Assembly: GCF_030816295.1 (NCBI RefSeq) | Contig: NZ_JAUSXV010000001.1 | Span: 2,914,001 to 2,978,000 of the forward strand | Source of the DNA: Microbacterium natoriense | Lineage (GTDB): Bacteria > Actinomycetota > Actinomycetes > Actinomycetales > Microbacteriaceae | DNA: 64,000 nt | Reading direction: 5' to 3' | Shown: positions 1-29,623 of the stretch, in pieces | Layout: every line of letters starts with the position of its first letter | How positions within the stretch are numbered: the first letter of the stretch is position 1 | The notes under the pieces: generated by a model | What the model was told of the DNA's origin: nothing | Database searches by the model: none | What the model saw: the letters and a program-made list of their open reading frames with translations, nothing else | Translations under genes and position numbers: made by a program

Positions 1-474
1 TATGACCGCCGGGCTATCTGCGTGCGGGGCAGCGCGATCTACGTTGGGGCTGCAGCCGATGCGCGTGGCCGCGTCGGCGACGAGATCTACGATTCCCTCG
101 CGCCGAACTGGTCCGTCGACTAGTACGCTCCTGTCTCCGAACCAGATCTTCGCCGACGTTGCGCGCAACTTCGACAGTTGACGCTCTGTCGGATCGTTGC
201 CAGGAATCATGACGCAGGTCGCACCCAGCGCGACGATGGCGCAGAAAACTGCCAAATCAGAGATCGAATTGCTAGGGCTTAGCGCGACCCTATCTCCGGC
301 ACACACACCATATCGACCGGCGAGCTCTTCGGCGATACAGTCGACTTTCTTGCCAAGCTCGCCGTAGGTGATTTCGGTTCGTTCGGCGCCAGCACCGACT
401 TCGATCACAGCGATATGCTCTCCGCGCCGATGCCATTGTTCGACAAGTTCAGGGAGCGTCTCAGGGTTTGACAC
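1..474 (-). CDS. AMP-dependent acyl-CoA synthetase/ligase, N-terminal part (cut by window edge)
   Basis: The N-terminal ~158 residues of an ANL-superfamily adenylating enzyme are visible. The translation has the family's opening pattern: TYGELGKKVDCIAEEL, then a GVCAGDRVALSPSNS stretch, then a conserved AIVALGATCVMI segment. The reading runs off the window just before the expected P-loop (SSGTTG-type) motif, so specificity cannot be read. The start is GTG at 474: the preceding in-frame codon is TAA, and a GATGAGG Shine-Dalgarno-like stretch lies upstream. It starts 11 bp after the UMP-kinase-like gene and belongs to the same minus-strand run. With the carrier protein and thioesterase nearby, its likely job is to activate an acid and load it onto that carrier (inference). 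Confidence 0.85.
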   Translation of the reverse strand, partial: MSNPETLPELVEQWHRRGEHIAVIEVGAGAERTEITYGELGKKVDCIAEELAGRYGVCAGDRVALSPSNSISDLAVFCAIVALGATCVMIPGNDPTERQLSKLRATSAKIWFGDRSVLVDGPVRREGIVDLVADAATRIGCSPNVDRAAPHADSPAVI

Positions 475-485
475 TTAGACCCTCA

Positions 486-1190
486 TCAAGACACGACGGT
501 ACCAATGTGAGAACCCTCGACAATCGCCTTCATGGTACCCGTCGACTCAATGTCAAAGATGTACAGCGGAAGCGAATGATCTCGCGCGAGAATGAACGCA
601 CTCTGATCCATAACTTGCAGGCCCCGAGCGAGCACATCGTCATATGACAGGCGATCAAAGAGGGTTGCGCTTGGATCAGTGTTTGGATCTGCACTGTAGA
701 CGCCGTTGACACCGTTTTTCGCGACAAACACAGCGTCAGCGCCTAACTCAACTGCGCGCTGAACAGACGGGTAGTCGGTAGTTGTGAAGGGCTGCCCGTT
801 TCCTCCGCCGAGCACAACGATCGCGCCTTTTTCGAGATGATGTCTGGCCCGGAGTCGTATATAGGGTTCGGCCAGGTTGTTGATTGGAAGGGCCGTCATC
901 AATCGCACATTCTCTTGCCCAAGTGCGGAAAGCTTACCTCGTAGAAGGACCCCGTTGATCACAGTGCCCAGCATGCCAATGTTGTCGGCTTCGACGCGGT
1001 CGATCCCCCACGCCTCGGAGCGATTGCCGCGGAAGACGTTCCCACCGCCGACGACCACAGCTACTTGTAGCCCCAACTCGGCAAGAGAAATAATCTCGCG
1101 CGCCAGGTGTTCAAGACTTTCTTCGCTGAAGCCGAATTCTTTGGTCCCGGAAATCGACTGACCGGACAGCTTGACAACGATGCGCTTCAT
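486..1190 (-). CDS. UMP kinase-like protein (PyrH family), extra copy inside a biosynthetic-type cluster
   Basis: Amino-acid-kinase fold, 234 aa, close to the usual UMP kinase length. The glycine-rich GGGNVFRG loop is at residues 48-55. A DNIGMLGTVIN segment near 69-79 matches the bacterial PyrH nucleotide-binding helix, where most PyrH read DYMGMLATVIN. Further on come GGGNGQPFTTTD, NGVNGVYSADP and a VMDQSAFILARD stretch. Family members transfer phosphate from ATP to UMP. The housekeeping pyrH normally sits with tsf and frr. This copy instead lies between an adenylating enzyme and an adenylate-kinase/NDK fusion, so it is a paralogue with a dedicated role: either phosphorylating a pathway nucleotide or serving as a resistant duplicate (inference). 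Confidence 0.88.
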   Translation of the reverse strand: MKRIVVKLSGQSISGTKEFGFSEESLEHLAREIISLAELGLQVAVVVGGGNVFRGNRSEAWGIDRVEADNIGMLGTVINGVLLRGKLSALGQENVRLMTALPINNLAEPYIRLRARHHLEKGAIVVLGGGNGQPFTTTDYPSVQRAVELGADAVFVAKNGVNGVYSADPNTDPSATLFDRLSYDDVLARGLQVMDQSAFILARDHSLPLYIFDIESTGTMKAIVEGSHIGTVVS

Positions 1191-1212
1191 GCCGACGTAC
1201 CCCTCATTTCGT

Positions 1213-2676
1213 TCAAGTCAGACTAACGTATCTGCTCGACGTCCGGGTACGTCGGCTCAACCTCCATGCGCTTCGCAACACGCGCTCGACTGGTTTCGAC
1301 CCCCAGTCCTGCCCCGCCGAGTCACGAAACCAAGATCCTGAACCCCGCGGCGTTTGGTCGACGGCGTAAGCTAGAGCGCCGGAAACCGGGCGCCTCGACC
1401 AGATCAACGTTTCACGTACAGCCTCAAGGGGGCCAGCTGACAAGTGAAATCCGTTCTTTTGAAGAGTGAACGGTTGAAGCGAGTACTTTCCTCGGGCGCC
1501 CTCCCCGCGGAGGCTCGTGGGGAGGGCTTTCGTCGGGTCGGATGAGCCGAGCACTTCGCGTCGGAGCGCTCCCCATCCAGAACGATCCGGCCTTGTCGGA
1601 TACAGCCCGACCGCAATGACAACGTTGCCTGGTTCTTCATACGAACGGATTTGGTTTGGCATATGGCCGTTGACCAGCACCTGGCCATCTGCCCGCGACT
1701 CATTGCGCCAGTATCCTTGCTCCGTCTTCCAGACCTTTCCCTCCTCCCAGGTGCCATACTCATCGGGTGCCAGTGCCTCCATGCCGCCGACGAACTTCGG
1801 GCCGATGAGGGAAGACGCGTACGCAGCATAGAGGTAATGTATGTCGAAGTGTGCTTTAGCTCTCAAGAGTACATCCGCGGATCCGGTCAAATGCCGGGCT
1901 TCCCACGCGACTCCCCATCCGTGCTCTTCGAACCGCCTGCTCACGGTGCGTAATAGGTCGCCGCTGCCGGTCAAGTGAGGTTTGATAAGGAGGACGGGCC
2001 CGGGCGCCAGGCTACAAATGTCTCGGGGCGAAGTGACGTCATGTTCAAAACCGAGGAAGCGGTCCGACGGTGACGACTTGTTGTCCTCAACGGGTATTTC
2101 GGCGAGCAGTAGCGCCGAGAGAGCGGACTTTAACACGTCTTCCACATCCATGTCGCCGTCGATAGTTAAGGTCGGCGCAAGTGCCTCCAACTCGCGGATA
2201 GTACGTTCCAAAGCGGAGAGTTGTGCTATCGAACGCGCAACGTGGATACTTTCGACATCATCCACGCGATTTCCGGTCGTGGCGCGTTCGAATAGTCTCC
2301 TCGCCCGGGTTATGTCCGGGGCCACGAGGTTGATAGCAAGCGTAGGCCGCAAACCAACTTGTATCAGCCCTTCGGCGACAGACACTCCTCCGTCCACGAC
2401 AATCGGTTTGCTGTCAGTGATCTGATCAAGCGCCACGCGGAGCACGCGAGCGATGTCGCTTCCCTCGAATGTGTCATTGCCGTTGAAGGCCTGTTCCATC
2501 CGCTGGTCCCATCCAATGCCGCTCTCCCGCAGGCGTCGAAGCTCGTCGCCAACTGCGATTCGATGCACGCCACCGAGAGCGCGAGCAAGGCCGATGCCCA
2601 ACGTCGTTTTTCCCGAGCCGGGCAAGCCCGTTAGAACGATTATCGTCCTCCCTTTGCCCCATCCCACACTTGTCAC
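1213..2676 (-). CDS. Fusion of adenylate-kinase-like P-loop domain with nucleoside-diphosphate-kinase-like domain
   Basis: I see two domains in 487 aa. The N-terminal half has a Walker A GLPGSGKTT (about residues 17-25), a GDELRRL stretch resembling the adenylate kinase NMP-binding entry, and an R-x5-GNRVDD-x2-E pattern like the adenylate kinase lid arginines. The C-terminal half (about 228-430) matches NDK: VLLIKPH with the lysine near 232, a LGSSDPTKALPTSLRG segment with the arginine near 390, and NGFH with the catalytic-type histidine near 411, spaced N-x-x-H as in NDK. About 60 residues are inserted between the early and late NDK elements. Start: GTG at 2676 gives a GTGA overlap with the upstream stop; ATG at 2706 is possible. 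Predicted to turn an NMP into an NTP (inference). Confidence 0.75.
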   Translation of the reverse strand: MTSVGWGKGRTIIVLTGLPGSGKTTLGIGLARALGGVHRIAVGDELRRLRESGIGWDQRMEQAFNGNDTFEGSDIARVLRVALDQITDSKPIVVDGGVSVAEGLIQVGLRPTLAINLVAPDITRARRLFERATTGNRVDDVESIHVARSIAQLSALERTIRELEALAPTLTIDGDMDVEDVLKSALSALLLAEIPVEDNKSSPSDRFLGFEHDVTSPRDICSLAPGPVLLIKPHLTGSGDLLRTVSRRFEEHGWGVAWEARHLTGSADVLLRAKAHFDIHYLYAAYASSLIGPKFVGGMEALAPDEYGTWEEGKVWKTEQGYWRNESRADGQVLVNGHMPNQIRSYEEPGNVVIAVGLYPTRPDRSGWGALRREVLGSSDPTKALPTSLRGEGARGKYSLQPFTLQKNGFHLSAGPLEAVRETLIWSRRPVSGALAYAVDQTPRGSGSWFRDSAGQDWGSKPVERVLRSAWRLSRRTRTSSRYVSLT

Positions 2677-3794
2677 GATGTCTTCACACCGACCATGGTC
2701 GTCCACGTACTCTGCGAGCGCGTTCTGGCGTCGGCGACCGCGAGAAACTCTTGGCTGAGCTCGGCGAGAGTAGGCATCGATACAACGCCGAGCACTGCTG
2801 CTGCCTTCGAGACTCGCTCCGACGGGAATACAGCCGAGACTGCGGCGATCGCGTATCGCACTTGCTCCCGGAAACCGAGTTCGGCGGAACGTGACGCGAG
2901 CGCCTCGATTTCAAAGTCCGTCGCGTCGACGTATCTGGCAAGGTCGGTGAGCTTGATGATGTTCCAGCTCATATGCCACTCGGAGTGCTCCGGATCAATC
3001 GTCTCGCGGGCGATGTGCAAAGCGAGCTGGATGCATAGGTCGACCGCTGACGGCGATGGCACGCTGAATGATGTCCCTACTCCCCAGGTCATTGTTGTAG
3101 TCGTCTTTACGTCTAGAAGGCGCTCCGCGGCGACCGACTGCCCACCTGTTGCGGTACTGCCAACCCGGAACTGAACTTGCGCGACGAGGTAGTCGATAAC
3201 GGGGTCGTCCTGCAACGCAAGGAAGTTTGGTAGACCACGAGAATGCAGTAGCCAGTTTCGTAGCTCGCCCGTGTGGAGCGGATCGATAGTTGTCTTGTCC
3301 GGAGACCAATACCCCATGGAAAAGCCCGCATCCCCCATCCCCGAAACAATGGCATCCAGGTCGTCACGGCCTGCAAGCAGGTCCAGGTCATACATCTTCC
3401 GGGCGCCGGGCGGATAGCAGGTGCCGAGCAATAGAGGTCCCCCCTTACCGACCATCCATCTCACCTCTGCGCCATTAAGCCCCTGGGATATCGCACGGAG
3501 TGCCTCGAACTGGGCCGCAGTGCGGCACTCGTTCACCCGGTGCAGTTGGGTCCAGTGATTGAACAGAAGCAGTGGCATGCCGGCGCTCAACACGGTCTCG
3601 AGCGACTGTAGTTGCCAGAGTCGAGTCCACGCTAGAAAGGCCACTTTGTGGAAGAGAGCGAGCGCAAAGAACTGCCCCCAGTCGAAGTCCGCGGTCGCGA
3701 TGAGACGTTCGATATCAGCACGCGTTGTGTCTGCATCCTGGCGATGATCGGCGAGGGCCAGGAGCAACTCCAGCGGCGCGTTATCAGTCGACAT
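2673..3794 (-). CDS. Uncharacterised nucleotidyltransferase family protein (NTP_transf_5-like)
   Basis: A 373-aa protein carrying the hallmark of the NTP_transf_5 family: a KGG segment (about 117-119), then CYPPGARKMYDLDLL with the aspartates near 136 and 138. This is the metal-binding D-x-D of a Pol-beta-like nucleotidyltransferase, followed by a helical region. Members often sit in peptide or polysaccharide biosynthetic loci, and their substrates are mostly unknown. ATG at 3794 is preferred; a TTG at 3803 is in frame. Its 5' end overlaps the Dabb gene stop, and its 3' end overlaps the kinase fusion by four bases, so the genes are translationally coupled. It could use an NTP made by the neighbouring kinases (inference). 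Confidence 0.72.
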   Translation of the reverse strand: MSTDNAPLELLLALADHRQDADTTRADIERLIATADFDWGQFFALALFHKVAFLAWTRLWQLQSLETVLSAGMPLLLFNHWTQLHRVNECRTAAQFEALRAISQGLNGAEVRWMVGKGGPLLLGTCYPPGARKMYDLDLLAGRDDLDAIVSGMGDAGFSMGYWSPDKTTIDPLHTGELRNWLLHSRGLPNFLALQDDPVIDYLVAQVQFRVGSTATGGQSVAAERLLDVKTTTTMTWGVGTSFSVPSPSAVDLCIQLALHIARETIDPEHSEWHMSWNIIKLTDLARYVDATDFEIEALASRSAELGFREQVRYAIAAVSAVFPSERVSKAAAVLGVVSMPTLAELSQEFLAVADARTRSQSTWTTMVGVKTS

Positions 3795-4068
3795 GGAAGT
3801 CAAACACGATCTGGCTGCTCTGACTAGACAGCTCGTTGCGGATGGGGTCGTGCAACGGGTTCGACCCCCAGGCGGCGAGATCCTCCGCTGTCTCGAACCG
3901 TAGCACGAACGCGTGTTGGTGGCCTCGAGTTCGTTCGGACGAATCGGCGCCGACGCGAGCTTCGACTAGGCCGGGTACGTTTCCATTCAACTGCGACACC
4001 CTCTCCAGGGTTTCGCGTATGCGCTTCTCGTCACCCGTTGTTCGTATGAGCACGATTCTGTCGATCAT
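3784..4068 (-). CDS. Small alpha-beta barrel (Dabb / stress-responsive A/B barrel) protein
   Basis: A 94-aa protein with the ferredoxin-like dimeric barrel pattern: a first strand DRIVLIRT, a long helix, VPGLVEARVGAD in the middle, HQHAFVLRFETAEDLAAW, then HDPIRNEL and a final strand. Dabb proteins occur as stress-induced proteins and as cyclases or decarboxylases in natural-product clusters; no catalytic residue is diagnostic here. It is the first gene of the minus-strand unit that runs down to the adenylating enzyme. A GGAGGCAA ribosome-binding stretch lies just upstream of the ATG. The region up to 4102 is shared with the divergent kinase gene and should hold both promoters. Confidence 0.75.
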   Translation of the reverse strand: MIDRIVLIRTTGDEKRIRETLERVSQLNGNVPGLVEARVGADSSERTRGHQHAFVLRFETAEDLAAWGSNPLHDPIRNELSSQSSQIVFDFHVD

Positions 4069-4101
4069 TGTTGCCTCCTTCTTGGGTACTAGGGTTTGTT
4101 C

Positions 4102-4989
4102 ATGAGTTCGTTCGAAGATGTGGGTCGCGCCATCTCTGAATATGGCCTAGAGATCGATCGGCCAATCAGGTCAGTTTGGGGCCGTCGGACCCAATGGGAG
4201 TGCACTGACCGGCGCGGCGAAAAGATCTTCCTGAAGGAATGGTCGCGAGTCGCGGATAGTGCACCCCGCGCCAACGAGCTTGCAGTCCTGACTCGCTTGC
4301 ACGCAACTAGTCCGGGGGTGGGCGCTGCACCCGTCGCGTTCGGCCCGGGCCTTATGGAGATCGAGGTCGGAAGCTCAGTCCTCACCGCGTCCGAGTTCAT
4401 TTCCGGACAAGATCTCGAGACCGGGTACTCCGAGGAAGGCATCGCAGCAACGTTCCAAGTCATCAATCGGATGCACCGCCATGTTGACCAGACGTTGCCT
4501 GTGTCAGCGGATCCAATCCACTCACTCGCTCGTGAAGTGATCACACGGTGGGGAGCAAACCCCGTGGTCCGTAGATCGGCCGGCCTGCTACGCGACGGCG
4601 CTGAGAGGCTTGCATCTTTACCGACCGCCGCGATCCATGGAGACCTGAACTTCAGCAACGTCATGCTCACTGTCGCCGGGCCAAGACTAGTCGACTTCGA
4701 ATTCTCAAGGAATGACATCCGGCTCCTCGATCTGGCCGCGTTGTCTTTCCCGTCGCGGGGTGCACAGAACGGAGCGCTCCAATCCGTTGAGGCCCTCAAC
4801 GACAACAAACTCATTCAACTGGCGGATACACACTTCGACCCTCCCGTCAGCCAATCTGAGCGAGAGATGTTCCCGTCTGCCGTCATCCTTCATCTTCTAC
4901 GCATCTTTCGCGACGTAACCCGACAGAGTCCGCACTCCGCCGCGCTCGTGCTGCCCGCCCTCGGCACTGCACTGGCCCGCTACGTCTAA
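4102..4989 (+). CDS. APH-fold phosphotransferase (aminoglycoside/choline kinase-like)
   Basis: A 295-aa protein with the Brenner-type catalytic loop HGDLNFSN beginning at H179, a metal-binding VDFE with the aspartate near 198, and a candidate ATP lysine in FLKEW near 45. This superfamily phosphorylates hydroxyls of small molecules such as aminoglycosides, macrolides, choline and homoserine. It is the only plus-strand gene of the cluster, divergent from the Dabb gene and overlapping the carrier-protein gene tail to tail by a few bases. ATG at 4102 follows an AGGG stretch; a TTG at 4096 is possible. In this setting it could tailor the product by phosphorylation or inactivate it for self-protection (inference). 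Confidence 0.82.
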   Translation: MSSFEDVGRAISEYGLEIDRPIRSVWGRRTQWECTDRRGEKIFLKEWSRVADSAPRANELAVLTRLHATSPGVGAAPVAFGPGLMEIEVGSSVLTASEFISGQDLETGYSEEGIAATFQVINRMHRHVDQTLPVSADPIHSLAREVITRWGANPVVRRSAGLLRDGAERLASLPTAAIHGDLNFSNVMLTVAGPRLVDFEFSRNDIRLLDLAALSFPSRGAQNGALQSVEALNDNKLIQLADTHFDPPVSQSEREMFPSAVILHLLRIFRDVTRQSPHSAALVLPALGTALARYV

Positions 4990-5240
4990 TCCCGAACGAT
5001 CCGGGCGATCAGCCGCTCGATGTCGCCGAGCGTGGCAAAGTGCTCTGGGCGGAAGTCTTCATCAGGAATCTCCAGGTGGAGGGCCGCCTCAATGGCGGAC
5101 GCAAACTGGTAAACGGAAAGGGACGACACGCCATACTCGCGTAGCGTGCGCCCCGAATCGAACTCCATCCCTTCAGCTCCGCCTGATGCCCCAATCGCTG
5201 CCACGATCGCTTGCCGGATATCACCCTTCGTAATACTCAA
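4986..5240 (-). CDS. Acyl/peptidyl carrier protein
   Basis: An 84-aa acidic helical protein typical of discrete carrier proteins. The phosphopantetheine site reads GVSSLS (residues 37-42), with S40 in the position of the serine of the usual G-x-D-S-L; the acidic residue before it is replaced by serine, which is uncommon. The start is TTG at 5240, giving a 20-bp overlap with the thioesterase gene upstream. That spacing implies coupled translation with the thioesterase, SAHH-like and reductase genes. It should hold an acid activated by the adenylating enzyme. No phosphopantetheinyl transferase is in the window, so one must come from elsewhere. Confidence 0.85.
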   Translation of the reverse strand: MSITKGDIRQAIVAAIGASGGAEGMEFDSGRTLREYGVSSLSVYQFASAIEAALHLEIPDEDFRPEHFATLGDIERLIARIVRD

Positions 5241-6015
5241 GCCACTCTCCTACTTCCTCCCAAAAAGGGGTCATACGTCGGCCACAGATCATTTCAAGGT
5301 GAGACAAACCCGGAACCAGCAACAACCGCGACCGTATCCAGCGATGGTGGCGGAACATCGCCTGGGCTCGTTCACCGGAACTCCCGCTTGATGTAGATGC
5401 GACAACGAGGATCGGACACCGAAGTCCGGCTACCTGCGCATCGATAGTTCGGTCCGTAGCCAGCTTGCGCAGTTCAGCGACGACTCCCTCTGGGAACCAT
5501 CTGTAGGTGCACCTCCCGAGGTATAACGCTTCGGTGTCATCCAATAGCCGCCCATCGGACAAGATAGGAGTGTCGGACTCGCCCGCCAGGCGCCGCTCGA
5601 TTTGACGGCGGAGTCTAGGCTGCCAGGCCGGGCAGTCCATCAATCCCTGGCCTATGTCGTCACACGAAGCTGGGGACGGTGCCCCCGGTGTCAATCCGCC
5701 GTCGATCAGAACGAGCGCGTCCGGCTCCAATTCGGCCGCCATGGCAACCGCCAAGGTTGCTCCGAAGCTGTATCCAACAAGCACACGTGCCTCGCCGTCA
5801 GGTTCGATCCAATGGGTCATAACGTCTGCGCGTATGTCAGCAAGACGAGTCCCGGCCAACTCGCGCTCGTGATGCTGCAAATCAACCAATCTGTATCGCG
5901 CCGAGCGGACTGTATGCCGGCGGCGGCGAAGCACAGCCCGCAGATCTCGGCCAGGGTCTTGCGCGCCGTGCTCTCGGTCGTTCTGCCATCTTCCCGGCAA
6001 GAAAAGAACCGTCAT
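5221..6015 (-). CDS. Alpha/beta hydrolase, probable type II thioesterase
   Basis: A 264-aa alpha/beta hydrolase starting MTVLFLPGRW, with nucleophile elbow GYSFGA (S83), an acidic residue in LVLIDGG and a histidine in GLSHLEM near the C-terminus, which gives a full Ser-Asp/His set. The size and the separate carrier protein next door fit an editing or releasing thioesterase, although a free ester or lactone hydrolase is not excluded. It overlaps the SAHH-like gene by four bases at its start and the carrier protein gene at its end. It is therefore the third gene of a four-gene coupled unit that reads down from 8210. Confidence 0.8.
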   Translation of the reverse strand: MTVLFLPGRWQNDREHGAQDPGRDLRAVLRRRRHTVRSARYRLVDLQHHERELAGTRLADIRADVMTHWIEPDGEARVLVGYSFGATLAVAMAAELEPDALVLIDGGLTPGAPSPASCDDIGQGLMDCPAWQPRLRRQIERRLAGESDTPILSDGRLLDDTEALYLGRCTYRWFPEGVVAELRKLATDRTIDAQVAGLRCPILVVASTSSGSSGERAQAMFRHHRWIRSRLLLVPGLSHLEMICGRRMTPFWEEVGEWLEYYEG

Positions 6016-7367
6016 ATGACACGCCGCAGAAGGTGGGAAGCTTCGCTGGAGACTGCCGCGATCAGCGTGCGAACAATCTGCGATTGAAACCGGTCAAAGT
6101 CGGGTTCCGGAACGCCCTCGGAACGAAATAGGTTCAGTGCATGACCATCACCAAGTACCTTCACGACCGCTCCATCGTGATCGAAGACTCTCCCGTAAGG
6201 CGTGTCGCGCATGACGTGCCCAAACGATCGGAAAATGGGCGTGAGGTCATTGGAAGCAACGGCGCATAGGCGTCCCCCATCCCGTAGGTGGGCGAGGACA
6301 CTTTGGTCGATACTAGGTGTGCCGGAGCACCCCACCATCCAGTCAAACGTCTCGGTGCCGACGTCCGTCGCCCGTTCTGCGGCGAGATAGCCTGCTGCGG
6401 AAGCTTCAGCTCTCCTCTTCGGGTTCGGTTCGATTACGGAGCATCGAATCCCGATCGCCGTCAATTGCTCGGTGACGTGGGCACCGAGATTGCCAAAGCC
6501 GAACACAAGGGCTGTGGTTCTGTCTACCCTGGCGTGTTGGCTGCTCGTCAGAATTTGCCTAACGAAGCTTGATGCGATTGCACGGCTCAACCCGAGTTTC
6601 ACACTCGATGATGCGAGATCGATGACCTCATCTGCATACTTTGCCAGGCGCAGCGCGCGCATGCCCTTGGATGTCGTTTCGATCATCGTTCTGGTAGACC
6701 CGCTGCCGCGTTCTCGCTCCATCACGTGCTGAATCAGCGCGCCACCGTCGTCAATGATGCATGTGGGATCGGAAGTTTCGGCTAGAACCAAGCCGAACAT
6801 CTCACTGTCGATAACCTTATAGCCGCGTTCCTCCAGCGTCCGATGAACTCTTCGGCCGTACAGAGTTTCGTCAGCCTTCGCAAACACCACGGTGGTTCGA
6901 GGATCGAGTCCGTTCCGTTCGAGCGCGATGACGAGGCCAACCCGCTCGAGGAGGAGATGGTCGTGGATCCAGAGCGTTTCACCTGACAAGGGGTCCAATT
7001 GACTAGTTGGGTCTTGTTGCAGCGTCTCCGGACAAAGGGCGAGGATCGCGGCCATCTCAGACTCGTTGAATGGCGCGACCGCATTCCATACATGTGTCCA
7101 CAATCGCTCTATTGCGCGATTATCTGAAGCTCTCGGGGTGACGAGGACTATGTCGATCGCGTCAAGGTACGGAAAGGGATCGCCGAGCCTTTGCTTGATC
7201 GGAGTAGGGAATCCGATCGAGGTTGCATGAACAGCCAGATTGGAGATGGCTGCGTCATCTCCGGCCTTGAGCTGATCAACCGCATCTGCCGCCCGGTCCG
7301 CTACAAGCTGGAGGGTCTCAGGAGAGCCATATACGCGTTCAACATGGCGAGCTTCCGATGTCTGCAC
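6012..7367 (-). CDS. S-adenosylhomocysteine-hydrolase-like NAD-dependent protein
   Basis: A 451-aa protein. The C-terminal half has a Rossmann motif GFGNLG followed by an acidic strand end (VIEPNPKRRAEA) and a WMVGCSGTPSI segment, which is the layout of the NAD domain of adenosylhomocysteinase. Just before it, a SSVKLGLSRAIASS stretch matches the region around the catalytic lysine. The N-terminal half is diverged, so I would not call it the housekeeping ahcY. SAHH-fold enzymes oxidise C3' of a nucleoside transiently, and paralogues could do so for a pathway nucleoside. Start GTG at 7367 lies directly after the TAA of the reductase gene. Substrate is unknown. Confidence 0.7.
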   Translation of the reverse strand: MQTSEARHVERVYGSPETLQLVADRAADAVDQLKAGDDAAISNLAVHATSIGFPTPIKQRLGDPFPYLDAIDIVLVTPRASDNRAIERLWTHVWNAVAPFNESEMAAILALCPETLQQDPTSQLDPLSGETLWIHDHLLLERVGLVIALERNGLDPRTTVVFAKADETLYGRRVHRTLEERGYKVIDSEMFGLVLAETSDPTCIIDDGGALIQHVMERERGSGSTRTMIETTSKGMRALRLAKYADEVIDLASSSVKLGLSRAIASSFVRQILTSSQHARVDRTTALVFGFGNLGAHVTEQLTAIGIRCSVIEPNPKRRAEASAAGYLAAERATDVGTETFDWMVGCSGTPSIDQSVLAHLRDGGRLCAVASNDLTPIFRSFGHVMRDTPYGRVFDHDGAVVKVLGDGHALNLFRSEGVPEPDFDRFQSQIVRTLIAAVSSEASHLLRRVI

Positions 7368-8210
7368 TTACTCACACCCCCGTCGTCCGATGGCGCTCAC
7401 GTCGATGTCAGTCCCCAGCCGTTGTATCGCGCCAGCAACGACGGCCTGGGCTTCGGCCACCATCGTCAGTGAACCATCGGTGCCAGGCACAAGCGCCCAC
7501 GATTCGAGGACGTTGTCGAGGTCTTTTCGCGCAAGCGCGGCGGAGAATTGCGCTTTGTCTGCACCCAGGAAGATTGCGTCACCGAACCTCTCCAGCATGG
7601 TTGAGGCTGCGGAGCCGGCGGCAAGCCCACGCATCGTCAGCACCGGGTCCAAACCCAGAGCTCCGGCCAGCGCTGCCCCGTCCACTAGGGCGCAGAGGTT
7701 CACCATGTGGACTGCCTGGTTAACCAGCTTCAGTGCCATTCCCTGTCCGACAGGGCCACAAGCGATGATCGTGCGAAAAAGATCAAGCGCACGAATCTGA
7801 GCGAGGATCGGATCGTGCGCGTCGGCACCGACGTAGGCCGTCAAGCCGCCGCGTCTCGAGAGAGCACTGGCTCCGGATACGGGACAATCAACATAGCGCC
7901 CCCCACTCAGTCCTACTTCTTTTCCAGCCTCCCGCGCCTCCGCCGGACTGGTAGAACTGCAGTCAATTACCAACGCGGGGGCATGCTGCACGGACTTCAG
8001 GACGTCGAGAACGGCGGTTCCATCTGGCAAGCAAAGTATCAAGATGTCCGCGGGGCCATTGGGCCTCACCGCGCCGCTGGCGAGGAGCTCGCTCTCGTTG
8101 TCAAGCGAATGTCCGCTCGATCGGAGCACGACGCGATGTCCGACTTCAATCAAACGCTCCGCGATCGACCGTCCCATCACCCCGATCCCGCAGACCTCAA
8201 TGCACTGCAA
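7368..8210 (-). CDS. NAD(P)-dependent 3-hydroxyisobutyrate dehydrogenase-like reductase
   Basis: A 280-aa beta-hydroxyacid dehydrogenase. It has a Rossmann GIGVMGRSIAERL at the N-terminus, the substrate-binding DCPVSGA near 109-115, and GPVGQGMALKLVNQ with the catalytic lysine K161. The family oxidises or reduces beta-hydroxy acids, and some act on imines. The predicted start is TTG at 8210 behind a GGGGGGAG ribosome-binding stretch. It is the first gene of the coupled unit reductase, SAHH-like, thioesterase, carrier protein. The base composition upstream changes abruptly into transposase debris, so the promoter must lie in roughly 8211-8370. Confidence 0.8.
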   Translation of the reverse strand: MQCIEVCGIGVMGRSIAERLIEVGHRVVLRSSGHSLDNESELLASGAVRPNGPADILILCLPDGTAVLDVLKSVQHAPALVIDCSSTSPAEAREAGKEVGLSGGRYVDCPVSGASALSRRGGLTAYVGADAHDPILAQIRALDLFRTIIACGPVGQGMALKLVNQAVHMVNLCALVDGAALAGALGLDPVLTMRGLAAGSAASTMLERFGDAIFLGADKAQFSAALARKDLDNVLESWALVPGTDGSLTMVAEAQAVVAGAIQRLGTDIDVSAIGRRGCE

Positions 8211-8377
8211 ACCGCTCCCCCCTCACTCCACGTCGCCGTGAATTTGTCCGATCCTTGCACGGATGCCGTCAACCCGCAATCAACGCAAGCTGCACGCGGG
8301 ATCTTCAAAGTGCACAGGTCCGCGTTGCGAGTTACTGAACCATCCGCGGTTCTCTGCCGCTCCTGTGTGGGTTTCTA

Positions 8378-8590
8378 CACAGGGTGGACTGGGGTTTCGA
8401 GGGCAGCGTAGTAGACCGTCTCGTACTCGTCGGGCGCGACTTCGTCGAGGGTGGAGTGCATGGACTGCCTCGTTCTTGAATAGACCGAACGTGGACTCTG
8501 ACAGAGCGGTGACGTGTGCATCGCCGATCGAAGCAATCGATGCAATGCTGTCCACCAGTGCAAGGGGCTCCGCGACGGCGCCGACGTGAA
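8378..8590 (-). pseudogene. IS3-family transposase OrfB remnant (frameshifted C-terminus)
   Basis: On the minus strand one frame reads SIGDAHVTALSESTFGLFKNE, matching the IS3 OrfB motif SxGDxxDNAxxESxxxxxKxE around the third DDE residue. A second frame continues as STLDEVAPDEYETVYYAAL, matching the usual IS3 C-terminal pattern. The two parts lie in different frames and both flanks are missing, so this is a dead fragment. The stretch 8211-8377, between it and the reductase gene, shows no gene and probably holds that operon's promoter. Confidence 0.7.
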
Positions 8591-8669
8591 CCGGTCGGGT
8601 TCAACCGGCCGTCGCAACACTCCGATGTGAGGAGCGATGATAGGACGTCCAACGGGATTGTTGAAGGAG

Positions 8670-9290
8670 TTGACGGGCCGGAGTCCGAAGATCTCGCCCG
8701 GGCATACGGGAACGCGACGAGGTGTCGAGCGCGAATCTGGAAGCACGTCGCGGGCGGAGTCTCGTCCGAGGACGCTGCTTTCTTGGCGGGTGTGTCGGCT
8801 GCGGTAGACGCTCGGCGGTTCCGGCATGCTCACGATCTCGTTCACCGAGCCGGACAGCCGGCAACTCTCGTTACTGGGCGGGAGAAGATCGCACTCCTGA
8901 ACGCGGGGCGGGGCACCAGAGTTCCGGGATTCGGTCGCACAGCCGAATTGATGGCGCGACGCCCTAAGCACGCGAAGTGGCTCCCGACCGACCAGCTACG
9001 AGGGTACTTTCAGAATCGGTTGGATGGGAGCCCGCGAGACAGCAGGATGGGACCGTGATCGATGGTGCGCACGTGCTGGCGTGGCAGAGACGGAACGCGC
9101 CGCACCAGCAGGATCGACGCTAGCCGACGGCGTGGAGCTCGCAGCAGGACTCGAAGCGGCTCGAGATCGAGTTCCCGGATGATGAGAGCATGCGCCTTGG
9201 CCAAGAGGCGATCTACCAGTCGCTGTTCATCGAGGGACGCGGCGCGCTCAAGCGTGAGCTTGTCGCGGCGCCGCGAGCAAGGAACATTCC
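8670..9290 (+). pseudogene. IS30-family transposase remnant (multiple frameshifts)
   Basis: Two recognisable blocks lie on the plus strand. Around 8727-8800 the translation gives GGVSSEDAAFLAGVS, the N-terminal helix-turn-helix region of IS30-type transposases. At 9160-9282 another frame gives EAIYQSLFIEGRGALKREL, the conserved stretch that precedes the IS30 catalytic domain. MARRPKHAKW in between also fits. The DDE domain is absent. The element is decayed and separates the biosynthetic genes from the ABC exporter genes. Confidence 0.72.
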
Positions 9291-9401
9291 AGCCGTTCCA
9301 TGCTGCCGGTGAGCCTGACACGATTGGATGGGTACGGCCACCAGCCTTGCACAAAACACGGCCGGCGCTCGAGGCAGCCCATCAGCCTTCAGCCACGTGA
9401 C

Positions 9402-10247
9402 TTATGCACCCGGGCTTGTATAGTGACGGGCCTGCCGCATGAAGAACCACCATCCTGCACACAGGCAAACCGGGCCAACCAGAGGCGCGGACACGGCGAG
9501 CCAAACTGGCACCAGAAGCTCCGCCGTCTTGTCGAGTACAACAGTCGCAGGCAAGTATGCGATGAATGCTAGCGGCAGCCCGAAGGTCAATGCGAAGACG
9601 CCGACCGGCCCGAAGACTGGAAGCGGGTACGCGCCGAAATCCCTCAATGTGTGATCGACACTGATCTTCAGGTTGCGCGTGGACCCCAACCGGAAGGACA
9701 GCCCCGAGAGTCCAATTTGCAGCCCGGCCTCGAGTAGGCCTCCTCCAATCGCCGCCACGACAATCAGCGCTACTAGCCAGGGTGTCCATGGAAGGGGAGC
9801 GATAACGATCGCGACGATGAGGATGCCAAGGCCGAGCGCCAGGTCGCCGATGGCACCAACGTTGAACCATCGGGTGAGCAATTGAATGAGCGGATTCACT
9901 GGGCGCAGGAGGAATCGATCGAAGTCACCCTCGCGGATTACCGAGTCGATCACCAGATGCTGACCGAAGAATACCGACGCAATGCCATGAGCCGTCAATC
10001 GAAGCCCATACAGAAACGCGATTTGTGGCGTAGACCACCCTGCGATCACCCCAAAACGATCCAGCAACACACCGATGAAGAGCAACTGGGTTCCCTGGAG
10101 GGCCGCGGTCCCCGCCACCATCAGAAGGATATTCCCTTTGTAGATGAAAGACTGCTTGACCGCGACTCGGAGCAAAATCCACCATTGGCAGGCAGGACTT
10201 GGATATTTGGCGCGCACGCGAGCGACGTGACGTGGGCCGTCAACCAC
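9402..10247 (-). CDS. ABC-2 family permease subunit (exporter), second permease
   Basis: A 281-aa membrane protein with about six hydrophobic segments. The conserved patch RPVNPLIQLLTRWFN is typical of the ABC-2 permeases that work in pairs with a NatA-like ATPase (PF06182 type). It is the last gene of a three-gene unit; its start overlaps the stop of the preceding permease gene by eight bases. It should form a heterodimeric export channel with that permease. Downstream it runs into IS debris. Proximity to the biosynthetic genes suggests product export or self-protection, but the cargo cannot be read from sequence. Confidence 0.82.
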   Translation of the reverse strand: MVDGPRHVARVRAKYPSPACQWWILLRVAVKQSFIYKGNILLMVAGTAALQGTQLLFIGVLLDRFGVIAGWSTPQIAFLYGLRLTAHGIASVFFGQHLVIDSVIREGDFDRFLLRPVNPLIQLLTRWFNVGAIGDLALGLGILIVAIVIAPLPWTPWLVALIVVAAIGGGLLEAGLQIGLSGLSFRLGSTRNLKISVDHTLRDFGAYPLPVFGPVGVFALTFGLPLAFIAYLPATVVLDKTAELLVPVWLAVSAPLVGPVCLCAGWWFFMRQARHYTSPGA

Positions 10248-11076
10248 CGTTGATCACCGTTCGGTGAACCGCACGCATATTCACCAGATATGCGATAAGT
10301 GAAAGTAGAAGGATCCACCCGATCTGCAGAAGGAGTTCACCGACTATGTTCCATCCCGGCGATCGGTCAAACCAAATGGACAGAGGCGTAAAAATCTGCG
10401 CACTGAAAGGAAGGAGACGGAGTACATCAGCGAGACCGTCCGGCATAAACCAAAGCGGGATGAGTGAACCTGAACAAAAGGCGGCCGCCATGTTGTAGAT
10501 CACGTACGCGCCGCTCGCTTCCGTCGTCCAGAACGCCGTCATACCGACGATGAGGTTGCACTGGATCGCTATGGTGAGGCCAAATACCGTACTGACGGCA
10601 AATGCGATGGTCTGCCACCATGTGCTGGACGCCGGAACGGAACCGATGGATAGAGCTAGCACTAGACAAACTATGACCTTCGGGAGATTCGCGAGACTCG
10701 TTCCGAGTTGAGCGGCTGTTGCCTGCGTCACGATGCCCACTGGCCGCATGATGTCAAACACGATGTTACCTGTGCGCACACGGCTCTGGAGTGTCGAGAA
10801 TTGCCAGGGCTGAAACACCACTGCGAACAATGCGCCGAGAACCGCATACCCGACCGCGTCCGCGCGTTCGATGCCACTCACGACGTCGCGCTCCCCATAA
10901 ACTGCTTGCCAAACGAGCATCACGAGGACGATACGGATCAGAGCGCTCACAATACCGACGACCACCTCCGCACGGAACACGAGCACGGAGCGCATTCCTT
11001 GGGCTACGAGCGCAACGCGCACAGCGAGCGCGCTTGGAGGCCTGTCACTCGCGTCTAATGCGTCACCCATGATCAT
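10240..11076 (-). CDS. ABC-2 family permease subunit (exporter), first permease
   Basis: A 278-aa membrane protein with six likely transmembrane segments and the patch FDIMRPVGIVTQATAAQLG. This is the same R-P-V/I block seen in the partner permease, so the two are distant paralogues. ATG at 11076 (or 11070) overlaps the end of the ATPase gene by 14 bases. The arrangement ATPase, permease, permease with overlapping ends is the usual one for this exporter class and predicts equal expression of the two channel halves. Confidence 0.82.
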   Translation of the reverse strand: MIMGDALDASDRPPSALAVRVALVAQGMRSVLVFRAEVVVGIVSALIRIVLVMLVWQAVYGERDVVSGIERADAVGYAVLGALFAVVFQPWQFSTLQSRVRTGNIVFDIMRPVGIVTQATAAQLGTSLANLPKVIVCLVLALSIGSVPASSTWWQTIAFAVSTVFGLTIAIQCNLIVGMTAFWTTEASGAYVIYNMAAAFCSGSLIPLWFMPDGLADVLRLLPFSAQIFTPLSIWFDRSPGWNIVGELLLQIGWILLLSLIAYLVNMRAVHRTVINGG

Positions 11077-12073
11077 GAATCTTACGGGTTGTATAGATCG
11101 AGGCTATGACTTCCTCAAGTTCGGGTTCCTGGACTGTCAAATCGGCGACTGGCAGGGTGGCAGTGGCACGGGCTATCGCGGCGGACGTCGCTATCTCGGA
11201 CGGGTCGAACCTCAAGTCCAGGACGGTTGCTGAGCCGTCCGATCGGGTAGCGACGTGCTCGACTCCGTCAATGCTCCAATGGGCGGGTGCCTCGCGTGAC
11301 AATTCAATCCGCAGAGTGCGGTGCGGCAGGTACGCCTGTCGCAGAGCGTCGATGTCGCCGTCGAACAGGATGCGTCCGTCGTCGATGATCACGACTCGGC
11401 GGCACAACTGCTCGACGTCGCCGATGTCGTGCGTCGTCAGCATGACAGTCGTGTTCGACGTGCGGTTCCGTTCTCGAATAAAGTCCCGTATCCGGCCTTT
11501 GGCGACAACGTCGAGGCCGACGGTTGGCTCATCGAGGTAGAGAACCGGTGGCTGATGCAGCATCGCAGCAACTAGGTCACCCCGCATGCGTTGTCCGAGC
11601 GACAGCATTCGCACCGGTCTGTCGATGAACGACCCGAGGTCGAGCAGATCGACAAACTCACTGAGCGTCCTCTCATAGGTCGAGCGAGCGATGCCATACA
11701 GCTTCGCGAGAACATCGAAGGAGTCCCGCAAGGGAAGGTCTACCCATAACTGGGTTCGCTGCCCGAAGACAGTCCCGATCGTATGCGCGTTCGCGGATCG
11801 ATTCTTCCACGGAACGATCCCATTCACGCTTACAGTGCCGCTCGTAGGGACAAGTACCCCCGTCAGCATCTTGATTGTGGTGGATTTCCCGGCACCATTA
11901 GGACCTAGATAGCCAACAATCTCTCCTGGCTCAATCGAGAGCGAAACCCCGTCGACCGCGCGGTTTACCACCTTCTTCGTGGTGATGAGATTCCGGATGC
12001 CCGAAAACGCTCCGTTGACGCGGACGGGACGCGTGAACTCTTTGACCAGATTCTCTGCGACGATGATCGACAT
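11063..12073 (-). CDS. ABC transporter ATP-binding protein (NatA/daunorubicin-resistance type)
   Basis: A 336-aa ATPase with Walker A GPNGAGKSTT, a Q-loop around FGQRTQLW, signature LSLGQRMRG, Walker B VLYLDEPTVGLD and the switch histidine in LTTHD. The long C-terminal tail after the ATPase core is usual in DrrA/NatA-type exporters. It heads the three-gene exporter unit and would power the two downstream permeases. A perfect 22-bp tandem duplication (12088-12131) lies 15-58 bp upstream of the ATG, where its promoter would be expected. Confidence 0.88.
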   Translation of the reverse strand: MSIIVAENLVKEFTRPVRVNGAFSGIRNLITTKKVVNRAVDGVSLSIEPGEIVGYLGPNGAGKSTTIKMLTGVLVPTSGTVSVNGIVPWKNRSANAHTIGTVFGQRTQLWVDLPLRDSFDVLAKLYGIARSTYERTLSEFVDLLDLGSFIDRPVRMLSLGQRMRGDLVAAMLHQPPVLYLDEPTVGLDVVAKGRIRDFIRERNRTSNTTVMLTTHDIGDVEQLCRRVVIIDDGRILFDGDIDALRQAYLPHRTLRIELSREAPAHWSIDGVEHVATRSDGSATVLDLRFDPSEIATSAAIARATATLPVADLTVQEPELEEVIASIYTTRKIHDHG

Positions 12074-12087
12074 GCCTCGAACGTATC

Positions 12088-12131
12088 GAGAAGCCAGCCG
12101 GCCAGTAAAGAGAAGCCAGCCGGCCAGTAAA
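12088..12131. repeat. Perfect 22-bp tandem duplication upstream of the ABC exporter
   Basis: A 22-bp unit beginning GAGAAGCCAGCC occurs twice back to back (12088-12109 and 12110-12131) without a mismatch. Each copy contains the palindrome GCCGGC. It sits in the probable promoter region of the exporter operon. It may double an operator or may simply be a recent slippage event. Confidence 0.9.
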
Positions 12132-12151
12132 GATGCCGCGGTCCTGCGCGT

Positions 12152-12711: not shown

Positions 12712-12730
12712 GCACCTTCTCCCGTCCTAG

Positions 12731-27354: not shown

Positions 27355-27892
27355 GACGCTCTTCTTCCCCGACACGACTGTTGTGAGCAACTTCGCCCTG
27401 ATCGACCAGATGGCGCTGCTCGAGACTCTCGTGAACGGGAATGGCGCATGGTGCGCAACAGTCGCTTCCGAGTGCTCGACCGGAGCAACGAAACCCGGAC
27501 TTGAGAAGATGGCTATAGCGCGCAGCATCTTCGGCGAACCGATCTACGCAACGCCGGCGGAACACGTCGACATCATCGTGTTGCAGGATCAGATGCGTCA
27601 GCCAGGAGATCGAGACACGGCGCATCTCGGAGAGTCTGAAACGATCGCGATCATCATCAGCCGGCAGCTCAGGGCTGCTTTCGTCACAGACGATCGAGAT
27701 GCGCAGCGCCAGGCCGCATTGCGCGGGATTCCTGTGTATAGCACCTGGCACATCCTGAAGCTGGGAGTCGCAACAGGACATCTCACCAGCGAGGACTTCC
27801 TCGCGGCCTATCAGACGCTCGTCGATGCAGATCGCGGACATCCTCCTTGTGGCCGAGGCGAGAGCTCAGTGGCCGCCTGGATCATCAGCTGA
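27347..27892 (+). CDS. PIN-like nuclease, putative toxin (module 2)
   Basis: A 181-aa protein with FFPDTTVVSNFALID (D9), HLGESETIAI (E96) and FVTDDRDAQ (D115/D116, D118). These acidic positions line up closely with module 1 although overall identity is low. The DTTVVSNF start is characteristic of a PIN-like group often found beside COG2856 proteins. Start TTG at 27347 lies within the end of the XRE-peptidase gene. Its 3' end overlaps the convergent integrase gene by 27 bases, which ties the module to the mobile element. Predicted metal-dependent RNase. Confidence 0.78.
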   Translation: MTRTLFFPDTTVVSNFALIDQMALLETLVNGNGAWCATVASECSTGATKPGLEKMAIARSIFGEPIYATPAEHVDIIVLQDQMRQPGDRDTAHLGESETIAIIISRQLRAAFVTDDRDAQRQAALRGIPVYSTWHILKLGVATGHLTSEDFLAAYQTLVDADRGHPPCGRGESSVAAWIIS

Positions 27893-29122
27893 CAGATCGC
27901 TCCGTCCACCGAGCCGCGAGAACGCTCGGTCGAGGATTGCAGCGGCCTCGGGATCCACTTCGCTCAGCTCGTGAATGTAGTGCTTCTTGGTGATCCGCGG
28001 GTCTGCGTGTCCGAGGACCTTCGCGGCTAATTCGGCGCCAGCTGCCTGGTTGTCGACGGATGCCACGGTCTTCCGCAGGGCGTACGGCGTCAGGAGGTCG
28101 ACATCGATGCCCACGCGCCCAAGCAGTTCACGATGCTGATTGCGAAACTCACGGAAGAGGCGGTCGATGTAGTTGACGGACATCGGGGTGCCGTTCTTCG
28201 TCGGCAAGAGAAGCTGATCGGGATTCGGTTCATAGCACGCGACCAGCCGTCGGAGCACTGCGTCCGCGTAGTCAGGAACGGTCATCGTGCGCTCCTGCCC
28301 TCTGCCCTTGGGGTGGTCCTTCCGGATGTTCTTGAACTTCTTCGTCCGGTTGACGTTGCCCGACAACGAGACTTTCGCCGGCTTCGACAGCAGGTGTACG
28401 TCGTCGAGGGTCAGACCGAGCACCTCGCCAGGCCGCAACGAAGTGCCCAGGGTGATGAGCAGGAAGTCCTCCATGGCGCGGACGTTGGGTCTGCTTCCAC
28501 CTCGCCGCCCCGGGTTCTTCCCCTCCCACTCTCGGATCAACGCGATGATGAGCAGAAGCTGGTCTTCCTCCAGTTGAATGCTGCGCTTCCGGGTGTTGTT
28601 CCGCAGCTTGGGAACGTCGTTCATCGGACTCGTTGGGATCACGCCGTTGAGAGCGGCAAACATGAGCATCCCCGACAGCGTCTTTCGGGTCACGGAGGCG
28701 AAGCTGTACGACCGCTCGCGTGCAAGGCGCTGCAGAAGGTTGTGGATGAAGCCAGCGTTGAGCGATCCGATCGGTACGGCGCCGATGTAGGGAAGCACGT
28801 TGTTCTTGACGCGGTTGTGATACGCCTCCCTACTGGACTGCTCGATCGCGTCTTCTGCCCTCATGTCGACGTCGGCAAGCCAGAGCGATGCGAGCTGTTC
28901 GGTCGTGGACACGACCGTCAGCGGCACGAACATGCCGCCCCACACTTGGTTCGCCTTGATCTGGATCGCGTCCTCGGCTTCCTCAGCAGTGTTGCACCAT
29001 GCCTCGAGAACGTGAAGGTCGCCGGCACCGTCGCGAACTCGGCCCCTGCTCCGATAGGCGCCGCCGATCTCATTGGTGGAGACCTTGCCGAGCTCACCCG
29101 GCTTCTTTCTCGGCCTAGGCAA
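27866..29122 (-). CDS. Tyrosine recombinase / integrase (second), adjacent to tRNA-Asn
   Basis: A 418-aa integrase with an AP2-like N-terminal arm, a SAM-like domain (about 70-170) and a catalytic domain. R230 is in GTSLRPGEVLGL, the box II histidine is replaced by tyrosine (Y347-x-x-R350 in TPYALRK), H372 is in VLGHADPRITKKHY, and Y382 is the nucleophile. The Y-for-H change is tolerated in many actinobacterial integrases. The gene is preceded by, and overlaps, an excisionase-like gene, and the pair lies 200 bp from the 3' end of tRNA-Asn, the probable attachment site. Confidence 0.92.
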   Translation of the reverse strand: MPRPRKKPGELGKVSTNEIGGAYRSRGRVRDGAGDLHVLEAWCNTAEEAEDAIQIKANQVWGGMFVPLTVVSTTEQLASLWLADVDMRAEDAIEQSSREAYHNRVKNNVLPYIGAVPIGSLNAGFIHNLLQRLARERSYSFASVTRKTLSGMLMFAALNGVIPTSPMNDVPKLRNNTRKRSIQLEEDQLLLIIALIREWEGKNPGRRGGSRPNVRAMEDFLLITLGTSLRPGEVLGLTLDDVHLLSKPAKVSLSGNVNRTKKFKNIRKDHPKGRGQERTMTVPDYADAVLRRLVACYEPNPDQLLLPTKNGTPMSVNYIDRLFREFRNQHRELLGRVGIDVDLLTPYALRKTVASVDNQAAGAELAAKVLGHADPRITKKHYIHELSEVDPEAAAILDRAFSRLGGRSDLSADDPGGH

Positions 29123-29345: not shown

Positions 29346-29550
29346 GACGGTCACATACCCGGTGCGAGCCGGGTTCTGCGCGGATCGTCGCGACTCATCG
29401 CGTAGTCGTTGCCGTGAAGCGCCACCAGAAGTCCCTGGTAGGCGATTTCTAGTGAGTTTTTGGTGAGTACCACCGTGCGTACCGTCGTCGGCATACATAG
29501 GAGAAGGCGCCCCATCCCTAGAAAAACTGGGACGTGACGCCTTCTATTGG

Positions 29551-29623
29551 CTCCCCGGCTTGGACTCGAACCAAGAACCTGCCGGTTAACAGCCGGCTGC
29601 TCTGCCAATTGAGCTACCGAGGA
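29551..29623 (-). tRNA. tRNA-Asn (anticodon GTT)
   Basis: On the minus strand the 5' acceptor TCCTCGG pairs with the 3' CCGGGGA (one G-T wobble). A D-arm (GAGC ending), an anticodon stem GCCGG/CCGGC with loop CTGTTAA, and a T-arm with GGTTCGAGTCC follow. The anticodon GTT gives asparagine. The 3' CCA is encoded (29548-29550). Its 3' end faces the excisionase and integrase, so it is the likely attB for the second element. Confidence 0.95.

Follow-up and report, generated by a model that had tools for sequence, protein, structure and literature searches.

A Gene Cluster Combining Carrier-Protein and Nucleotide-Kinase Genes on an Integrative Element of Microbacterium natoriense

Organization of the Gene Set

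The window analyzed here, a stretch of 64,000 nucleotides of Microbacterium natoriense (positions 2914001-2978000), sits in a 4.19-Mb genome assembled as one contig, and at its left end lies a gene set in which an acyl carrier protein (ACP) and an AMP-forming ligase are encoded together with nucleotide kinases and a nucleotidyltransferase. These intact-looking, conserved genes are carried by an integrative element of 35 kb, which another strain of the same species lacks. With the sequence leftward of the window included (L003; window position equals L003 position minus 18000), the set extends from about -3810 to 8210, and 13 biosynthetic genes and 3 exporter genes were counted, the first possible starts being used as gene starts. 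A preliminary description had named ten genes in 1-8210, all of which are present with the domains given there; the leftward extension that it had proposed revealed the complete ligase, followed by genes for two glycosyltransferases (GT2 and GT8) and a cupin-like protein.

Read from right to left on the minus strand, the set begins with a dehydrogenase resembling HIBADH and tartronate-semialdehyde reductase (7368..8210; PF03446 2.1e-17, PF14833), assigned at the superfamily level. It is followed by an NAD-binding enzyme with a divergent active site that resembles S-adenosylhomocysteine hydrolase (SAHH) (6012..7367; weak SAHH profiles, an SAHH in the PDB at 4.9e-06), a thioesterase-like alpha/beta-hydrolase (5221..6015; PF12697, PF00975 at 22.3 bits, below 26.4, and a G-Y-S-F-G nucleophile motif) and the ACP (4986..5240; PF00550 5.9e-08, serine in GVSSL). 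An APH-fold small-molecule kinase (4096..4989; PF01636 5.1e-11, motifs HGDLNFSN and VDFEF) lies on the plus strand, and the minus strand continues with a Dabb-domain protein (3784..4068; PF07876 9.5e-12), a Pol-beta-type nucleotidyltransferase of the NTP_transf_5 family (2673..3803; PF14907 1.6e-19, motif KGG...YDLD), a fusion of an adenylate-kinase-type (AK) domain with a nucleoside diphosphate kinase (NDK) domain (1213..2706; AAA_18 6.4e-10, a PDB adenylate kinase at 1.8e-06, NDK by profile) and a PyrH-type UMP kinase separate from the housekeeping copy (486..1190). The ligase (509 aa; L003:16945-18474, minus strand; PF00501 1.7e-60 over its full length) has its N-terminal part at 1..474 of the window. 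Beyond it lie the GT2 gene (L003:15857-16957, minus strand), whose nearest solved relative is glucosyl-3-phosphoglycerate synthase (7.7e-06), and, on the plus strand, the GT8 gene (L003:14996-15877) and the cupin-like gene (L003:14190-15017). The last product was read as a cupin from its histidine-rich motifs; it has no Pfam match, and a PDB search gave no match at E<=1.

To the right of the biosynthetic genes, an ABC-2 exporter trio occupies 9402-12073 on the minus strand. It comprises an ABC-2 permease (9402..10247; PF06182 9.4e-38), a probable second ABC-2 permease (10240..11076), recognized by position and overlap of the open reading frame (ORF) and by eye from its sequence and lacking an NCBIfam match, and a DrrA-like ATPase (11063..12073; TIGR01188 207 bits, below the cut-off of 312). 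No nonribosomal peptide synthetase (NRPS) or polyketide synthase (PKS) core gene was found among the 13 genes scanned.

Because APH, GT8 and the cupin-like gene lie on the plus strand and the other 10 biosynthetic genes on the minus strand, the 13-gene set is not one single-strand operon. The genes had been described as closely packed with overlapping ends, which holds for five of the nine junctions in 1-8210 (overlaps of 4 to 34 nt, one of them formed by the convergent ACP and APH ends); at one further junction the genes abut, and at the remaining three they are 11 to 27 nt apart. A promoter and terminator scan gave signals no more frequent than in shuffled sequences, and a repeat search of window positions 1-13000 found a single weak inverted pair. 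Conserved catalytic motifs were found in the window copies of AK-NDK, NTP_transf_5, APH, ACP, ligase, hydrolase, HIBADH-like enzyme, GT2, GT8 and cupin-like protein, with patterns typical of the respective families; two other patterns were misplaced, one in each of two related loci (G150 and G1294, described below), where alignments show the residues concerned.

The Integrative Element

The cluster is part of a tRNA-integrated mobile element of about 35.0 kb, recognized by its integrase, by direct repeats at both ends and by a relative in which the insertion site is empty. A tyrosine integrase (27866..29122, minus strand; PF00589 1.8e-11) lies next to tRNA-Asn (29548-29623, tRNA scan), and the right copy of a 38-bp direct repeat (29547..29584) overlaps the end of this tRNA gene, its perfect left copy being found at -5425..-5388. 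In another genome of the same species (G1161; 90 contigs, 99% complete), the two flanks join at the tRNA-Asn site with 99.1% identity, and AK-NDK was not found. The G+C content is about 60% inside the element and about 65-70% outside. Besides the cluster, the element carries a second tyrosine integrase (13392-14639, domain scan), a D12 DNA methyltransferase (15514-16485), two HTH-IrrE proteins (18148-19458 and 26293-27354) and an HTH_17 protein (20333-20572).

Recurrence and Rarity of the Cluster

Support for the gene set as a unit comes from its recurrence. When contigs from 84,980 species were scanned for NTP_transf_5, a single one of 84 pattern stretches was confirmed. In this locus (L017), from a metagenome-assembled genome of the distantly related Hamadaea, 11 of the 13 genes have a counterpart within 17.5 kb, with local identities (tblastn, E<=1e-3) of 56% for PyrH, 47% for the cupin-like protein, 45% for the ligase, 43% for NTP_transf_5, 38% for the HIBADH-like enzyme, 36% for the ACP, 34% each for the SAHH-like enzyme and AK-NDK, 31% for GT2, 30% for the thioesterase-like hydrolase and 28% for APH. 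Dabb, GT8 and the ABC trio had no match in the 20,456 bases of L017, whose contig begins 330 bases before PyrH, and the genes absent there could lie beyond the contig end. Further genes of L017 encode a carbamoyltransferase and an ATP-grasp protein; neither protein matched anything in the window, L003 or L004.

A smaller version was found in a genome of the same class and a different order (G150), where five adjacent genes encode NTP_transf_5, an SAHH-like enzyme, APH, a small carrier-like protein and AK-NDK; tblastn gave matches for all of them except the carrier-like protein. The same five genes in the same order, with 70-86% identity, are present in G1294 from the genus of G150, and the dN/dS ratios between the two (0.12, 0.21, 0.30, 0.35 and 0.28 in gene order) indicate that the five-gene core is under purifying selection. 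SAHH-like and APH relatives thus accompany AK-NDK in all three other loci, while Dabb was without a match (E<=1e-3) in these other clusters (L017, L008 and L036). Co-occurrence in other genomes had been set beforehand as the test of the cluster, and the 11 genes in Hamadaea together with the core in two further genomes support the proposal that carrier-protein chemistry and nucleotide kinases belong to one cluster. A chance gathering of genes was rejected on the recurrence in L017, G150 and G1294 and because the cluster ligase of the Hamadaea genome scores 367 bits, far above the 115 bits of the next-best one elsewhere in that genome.

The cluster is rare in the samples searched. Full-length AK-NDK was found in 2 of 396 genomes in the phylum draw (single-protein query) and 2 of 394 in the class draw, in 1 of 247 from the genus and 1 of 269 from the family of the window's own genome, in 1 of 250 from the family of the Hamadaea genome, and in 2 of 148 from the genus and 1 of 278 from the order of G150; these draws overlap and include the window's own genome, and in all the full-length protein was seen in four different genomes. 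A match to just one half was obtained three times in the family of the Hamadaea genome and six times in the genus of G150, and AK-half-only matches in G897, G038, G648, G1254, G1288, G1349 and G1363 were classed, by the range that matched, as ordinary adenylate kinases. A scan of contigs for AK-NDK with two narrow patterns gave 40 pattern stretches and none confirmed. Among 72,556 plasmid records, the window and Hamadaea queries found a relative of the NDK half only, in 1 record; NTP_transf_5 and the AK-NDK of L008 had no match there, and the GT2 of L017 matched 7 records.

NDK-like proteins with the same type of insert (described below) also occur outside the cluster, at L037:9685-10674 (G903) and at L038 about 4540-5247 (G949), both in genomes from the family of the Hamadaea genome. 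By eye, the neighbors in L037 are ITPase-like, nucleoside-kinase-like, SIR2-like and thymidylate-synthase-like, and the L038 protein lies beside an NRPS. These two relatives, together with the SIR2-like, thymidylate-synthase-like and ITPase-like neighbors of one of them and with the methyltransferase and the two HTH-IrrE proteins of the element, would fit a nucleotide-signal or anti-phage module carried on a mobile element without any metabolite pathway. This explanation is very improbable: a ligase, an ACP, a hydrolase, two glycosyltransferases and an exporter suit a pathway better, and PADLOC, run on seven of the 13 proteins, gave two weak matches (E about 8e-05), both to the P-loop AK half. 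A known defence system was rejected, as none of the seven proteins scanned had a specific match. In PHROGs, the AK half alone gave weak kinase, ATPase or terminase-type matches, and NTP_transf_5 one weak match of unknown function.

Nucleotide Kinases and the Nucleotidyltransferase

The preliminary description had spoken of a full set of nucleotide kinases. An NMP-kinase-type domain (AK), PyrH and an NDK domain are indeed all present with their key residues, with the qualification that the NDK domain carries an insert and that PyrH is divergent. The NDK half scores under the gathering score of 27 bits for PF00334 both in the window (13.0 bits) and in L008 (21.3 bits). A profile built from seven relatives matched 112 PDB sequences at E<=1 (best match 1.6e-09), and the best 60 of the 112 are all named NDK, one of them jointly with FAP67. 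In 7 of 7 relatives the domain keeps the catalytic histidine of NDKs and their nucleotide-binding lysine, two arginines, asparagine and serine, as well as an earlier histidine and DP, and by these residues and the profile it is a predicted nucleoside diphosphate kinase. Its two halves match solved NDKs separately, with ~100 profile positions between them versus some 30 residues in 6aes and about 65 in 1xqi. The inserted stretch contains N-x-H-x-P in 5 of 7 relatives (N-G-F-H-P in L037 and L038) and may be equivalent to the nucleobase pocket. NDK is also treated in PMC6429109, where the passages available concern N-phosphohistidine and mention no such cluster.

The AK half falls outside the curated adenylate kinase model (TIGR01360, 30.8 bits versus a cut-off of 284.1), while its fold and motifs are those predicted for an adenylate kinase: the P-loop and the VGDxxR NMP site are present in 4 of 4 copies, and the LID arginines R137, R141, R147 and R158 in 3 of 3 aligned, although a simple LID pattern matched 1 of 4. 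PyrH scores above the cut-off for UMP kinase (TIGR02075, 279.1 versus 243.9 bits). It shares 56% identity with the Hamadaea cluster PyrH and 41% with the housekeeping PyrH of its own genome; in pairwise comparison the cluster PyrHs are 41-47% identical to three housekeeping PyrHs, which share 66-73% with one another. A recent duplication of the housekeeping gene was therefore rejected, the two cluster PyrHs being nearer to each other than to housekeeping copies. Because the NDK has a large insert and PyrH is nearer to its Hamadaea counterpart, the cluster kinases need not simply make ordinary nucleoside triphosphates (NTPs). The APH and NTP_transf_5 motifs are each present in 4 of 4 loci; a profile of NTP_transf_5 gave no PDB match at E<=1.

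Two other roles for the kinases are live alternatives. The first is self-protection, in which the product would inhibit, or be activated by, nucleotide kinases, PyrH and AK-NDK would be insensitive copies, and APH and NTP_transf_5 would inactivate the product, the one by phosphorylating and the other by nucleotidylating it, in the manner of aminoglycoside-type resistance enzymes. PyrH, as a full-length, divergent extra copy with 41% identity to its housekeeping counterpart, fits such a role, APH and nucleotidyltransferase folds are typical of resistance enzymes, and in Rhodococcus opacus the region around a related cupin-ligase pair contains an ileS that may itself be a resistance copy. The fused and inserted AK-NDK is not a copy of a housekeeping target, however, and the smallest core keeps AK-NDK, APH and NTP_transf_5 where no PyrH adjoins (the single PyrH of G150 is elsewhere in the genome), which makes self-protection an unlikely account of the kinases. 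The second is cofactor recycling, in which the kinases would only return the AMP of the ligase and the UMP or UDP of glycosyl transfer to NTPs. An AMP-forming ligase and two glycosyltransferases within the cluster would supply these nucleotides; yet the hosts already possess kinases that recycle AMP, UMP and nucleoside diphosphates, the NDK domain carries an insert, and in G150 and G1294 AK-NDK is retained in a core beside which neither the ligase nor the glycosyltransferases have a match. Recycling alone is improbable as well.

The SAHH-Like Enzyme

The SAHH-like protein scores 25.2 bits with TIGR00936, versus a cut-off of 497.6, and thus falls outside S-adenosylhomocysteine hydrolase proper. 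When mapped residue by residue onto housekeeping SAHHs, the SAHH-like enzymes retain equivalents of the N-terminal His, DDGG, a Glu, the NAD+ site and probably a Lys; this Lys is invariant in 8 of 8 SAHH-like proteins, and the correspondence of His and Lys to true SAHH rests on one alignment. It was reported that AgmF, a SAHH homolog, acts on a nucleoside as a dehydratase in angustmycin biosynthesis and requires H56, D129, K184, D188 and H299 (PMC8599513). As mapped through housekeeping SAHHs and not via the AgmF sequence itself, the first two and probably K184 have counterparts in the cluster enzymes, D188 and H299 do not, and the enzyme is therefore not placed in the AgmF type. Angustmycin and the window cluster are alike in that a SAHH homolog belongs to a biosynthetic cluster rather than to methyl recycling; they differ in that the window enzyme, with the first His, DDGG, Glu and probably Lys, is devoid of FDN and GH, and in that the six pathway enzymes AgmA-F, as given in the available part of that paper, include no ACP, NDK or NTP_transf_5.

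SAHH-like relatives were found in 9 plasmid records with the window query and 12 with the Hamadaea query; their context was read from annotation for five of the first nine and from ORFs for a sixth, and, for three more of the twelve, from annotation (one) or tblastn (two). In the Streptomyces plasmids L011, L012, L013 and L015, a fusion of SAHH-like and Gfo/Idh/MocA parts lies beside a phosphotransferase, an 'AP endonuclease' TIM-barrel and hypothetical proteins, and the last gene of this recurrent cluster is weakly HprK-like in L011 (Pfam). A distant SAHH-like match outside actinobacteria (27% to the Hamadaea protein) lies at L041:10001-10957 in an Aeromonas caviae record. The window's own genome has a housekeeping SAHH (2172452-2173906) and a further SAHH-related stretch (G000:C1:388953-389696, 40% over part of the query).

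The Acid and Its Carrier

The best solved relatives of the ligase are malonyl- and oxalyl-CoA synthetases. For the HIBADH-like enzyme, the best-scoring model is 2-hydroxy-3-oxopropionate reductase (TIGR01505, 94.7 bits, below the cut-off of 340.75), and GT2 resembles a glycerate glucosyltransferase. Together, the relatives of these three enzymes hint faintly at a small hydroxy acid as the ligase substrate. It speaks against this reading that GT2 scores about equally with an exopolysaccharide GT2 model (26.6 bits) and with the glycerate enzyme model (26.2 bits). The nearest NCBIfam model of the window ACP is the cispentacin ACP AmcB (NF058660), at 33.9 bits and so below its 80-bit cut-off, and no cispentacin model is among the matches listed for the other cluster proteins scanned (the best 25 for the ligase).

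Comparison With Known Systems

No characterized cluster with this gene set was found in the papers searched, a search that left subscription journals mostly outside and compared no library of characterized clusters, and the cluster is perhaps undescribed, as had been suggested. The biosynthetic logic that it most resembles is that of thuringiensin, for which it has been proposed that a sugar acid is assembled on an ACP, glycosylated, linked to adenosine and phosphorylated late (PMC4147579). Both have an adenylation and ACP function, a glycosyltransferase and a kinase, which is proposed to act late in thuringiensin; compared by gene list only, the 11 thu genes listed in the available part of that paper contain no AK-NDK, PyrH, SAHH-like enzyme or NTP_transf_5.

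A plasmid of Streptomyces sp. HUAS 15-9 (L007) shares with the window a SAHH, a cupin-domain protein, an NDK-like part with N-x-H-x-P, NTP_transf_5 and an ABC trio. It differs in that the same protein has, next to its NDK-like part, a nucleotidyltransferase-like domain (by eye, without Pfam match), the SAHH is near-canonical in most motifs, the cupin is of the Cupin_5 type, whose kinship to the window cupin is not established, and an aminotransferase and a pitrilysin are present with no ligase, ACP or PyrH annotated. A guanylate kinase gene (L007:6951-7616) near this SAHH/NDK-like locus is a possible parallel to the window PyrH. The single plasmid relative of the window cupin-like protein is in Rhodococcus opacus (L039), where a cupin-like protein (58%) lies directly beside an AMP-ligase (38%); this region (L039:13998-28714) has no match to the kinases or the SAHH-like enzyme, and encodes a dioxygenase, an aminotransferase, NRPS-type condensation pieces and ileS. 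The ileS might be a copy that confers resistance to an inhibitor of isoleucyl-tRNA synthetase.

Proposed Function

The smallest recurrent set consists of three phosphoryl or nucleotidyl transfer proteins (with four such domains), one SAHH-like enzyme and one carrier-like protein. Based on the simplest pathway that uses all of its members, it is proposed, with a probability of about 0.4, that this rare transferable cluster makes and exports a nucleotide-containing metabolite, and that a dedicated kinase relay supplies an unusual NTP to NTP_transf_5 for joining to an ACP-activated acid. The cluster itself is well supported; the order of reactions, the substrates, the identity of the base and the product are what we infer from the gene content, as is the more general idea that an acyl or aminoacyl unit may be joined to, or activated through, a nucleotide.

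In the proposed pathway, a nucleoside probably has its sugar remodeled by the SAHH-like enzyme by means of bound NAD+, a role for which AgmF is a demonstrated precedent as a SAHH homolog acting on a nucleoside. The APH-fold kinase would add the first phosphate to the modified nucleoside, the AK domain (PyrH in the case of a uridine part) the second and the NDK domain the third, giving a triphosphate not accepted by housekeeping kinases. The L007 locus, with its SAHH, NDK-like domain, NTP_transf_5 and ABC trio, also speaks for such a pathway. NTP_transf_5 would then pass the nucleotidyl group to an acceptor, the carrier holding either the acceptor or the acyl part. In the larger clusters, the ligase would load the acid on the ACP, the HIBADH-like enzyme would then reduce it, the GpgS-like GT2 might glycosylate its hydroxyl and the hydrolase would release it, with export of the product by the DrrA-type ABC trio.

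Several observations weigh against this pathway. The SAHH-like enzymes are without the residues aligned with FDN, GH and HP of SAHH in the residue map, and their reaction may differ because these are lost. The small-acid reading of the ligase is weakened by its best NCBIfam model, that of a long-chain fatty-acid ligase subfamily (217 bits versus a cut-off of 476), with malonyl-CoA synthase second (170 of 558). The best NCBIfam models of the Hamadaea APH are homoserine kinases (38 bits, below the cut-off), and the substrate of APH may be an acid or alcohol rather than a nucleoside. In G150 and G1294, the carrier-like protein has no tblastn match to the window ACP and, in the L008 copy, no Pfam match, so that its ACP-like label comes from place, pairwise alignment and a serine motif. 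Beside the core in G150 and G1294, moreover, PyrH, ligase, hydrolase, HIBADH-like enzyme and GT2 are unmatched.

A bolder form of the proposed nucleotide pathway, doubtful as it stands, is that the cluster builds its own non-canonical NTP with APH, AK or PyrH, the inserted NDK and the Pol-beta-type transferase, and transfers the nucleotidyl group to a carrier-bound hydroxy acid. The exported products would be glycosyl-acyl nucleotides not yet isolated, and unrelated bacteria would have taken up the core as a transferable module and combined it with different base-specific kinases, such as PyrH here and guanylate kinase in L007.

If the proposed pathway is true, the cluster would provide a genetic handle on nucleotide natural products that might be overlooked when genomes are searched for core genes of the NRPS or PKS type. 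With its inserted NDK domain, the AK-NDK fusion would serve as a probe for further clusters of this kind, and two biochemical questions are raised, namely which nucleotide is accepted by the inserted NDK and which reaction is catalyzed by a SAHH after the loss of FDN and GH.

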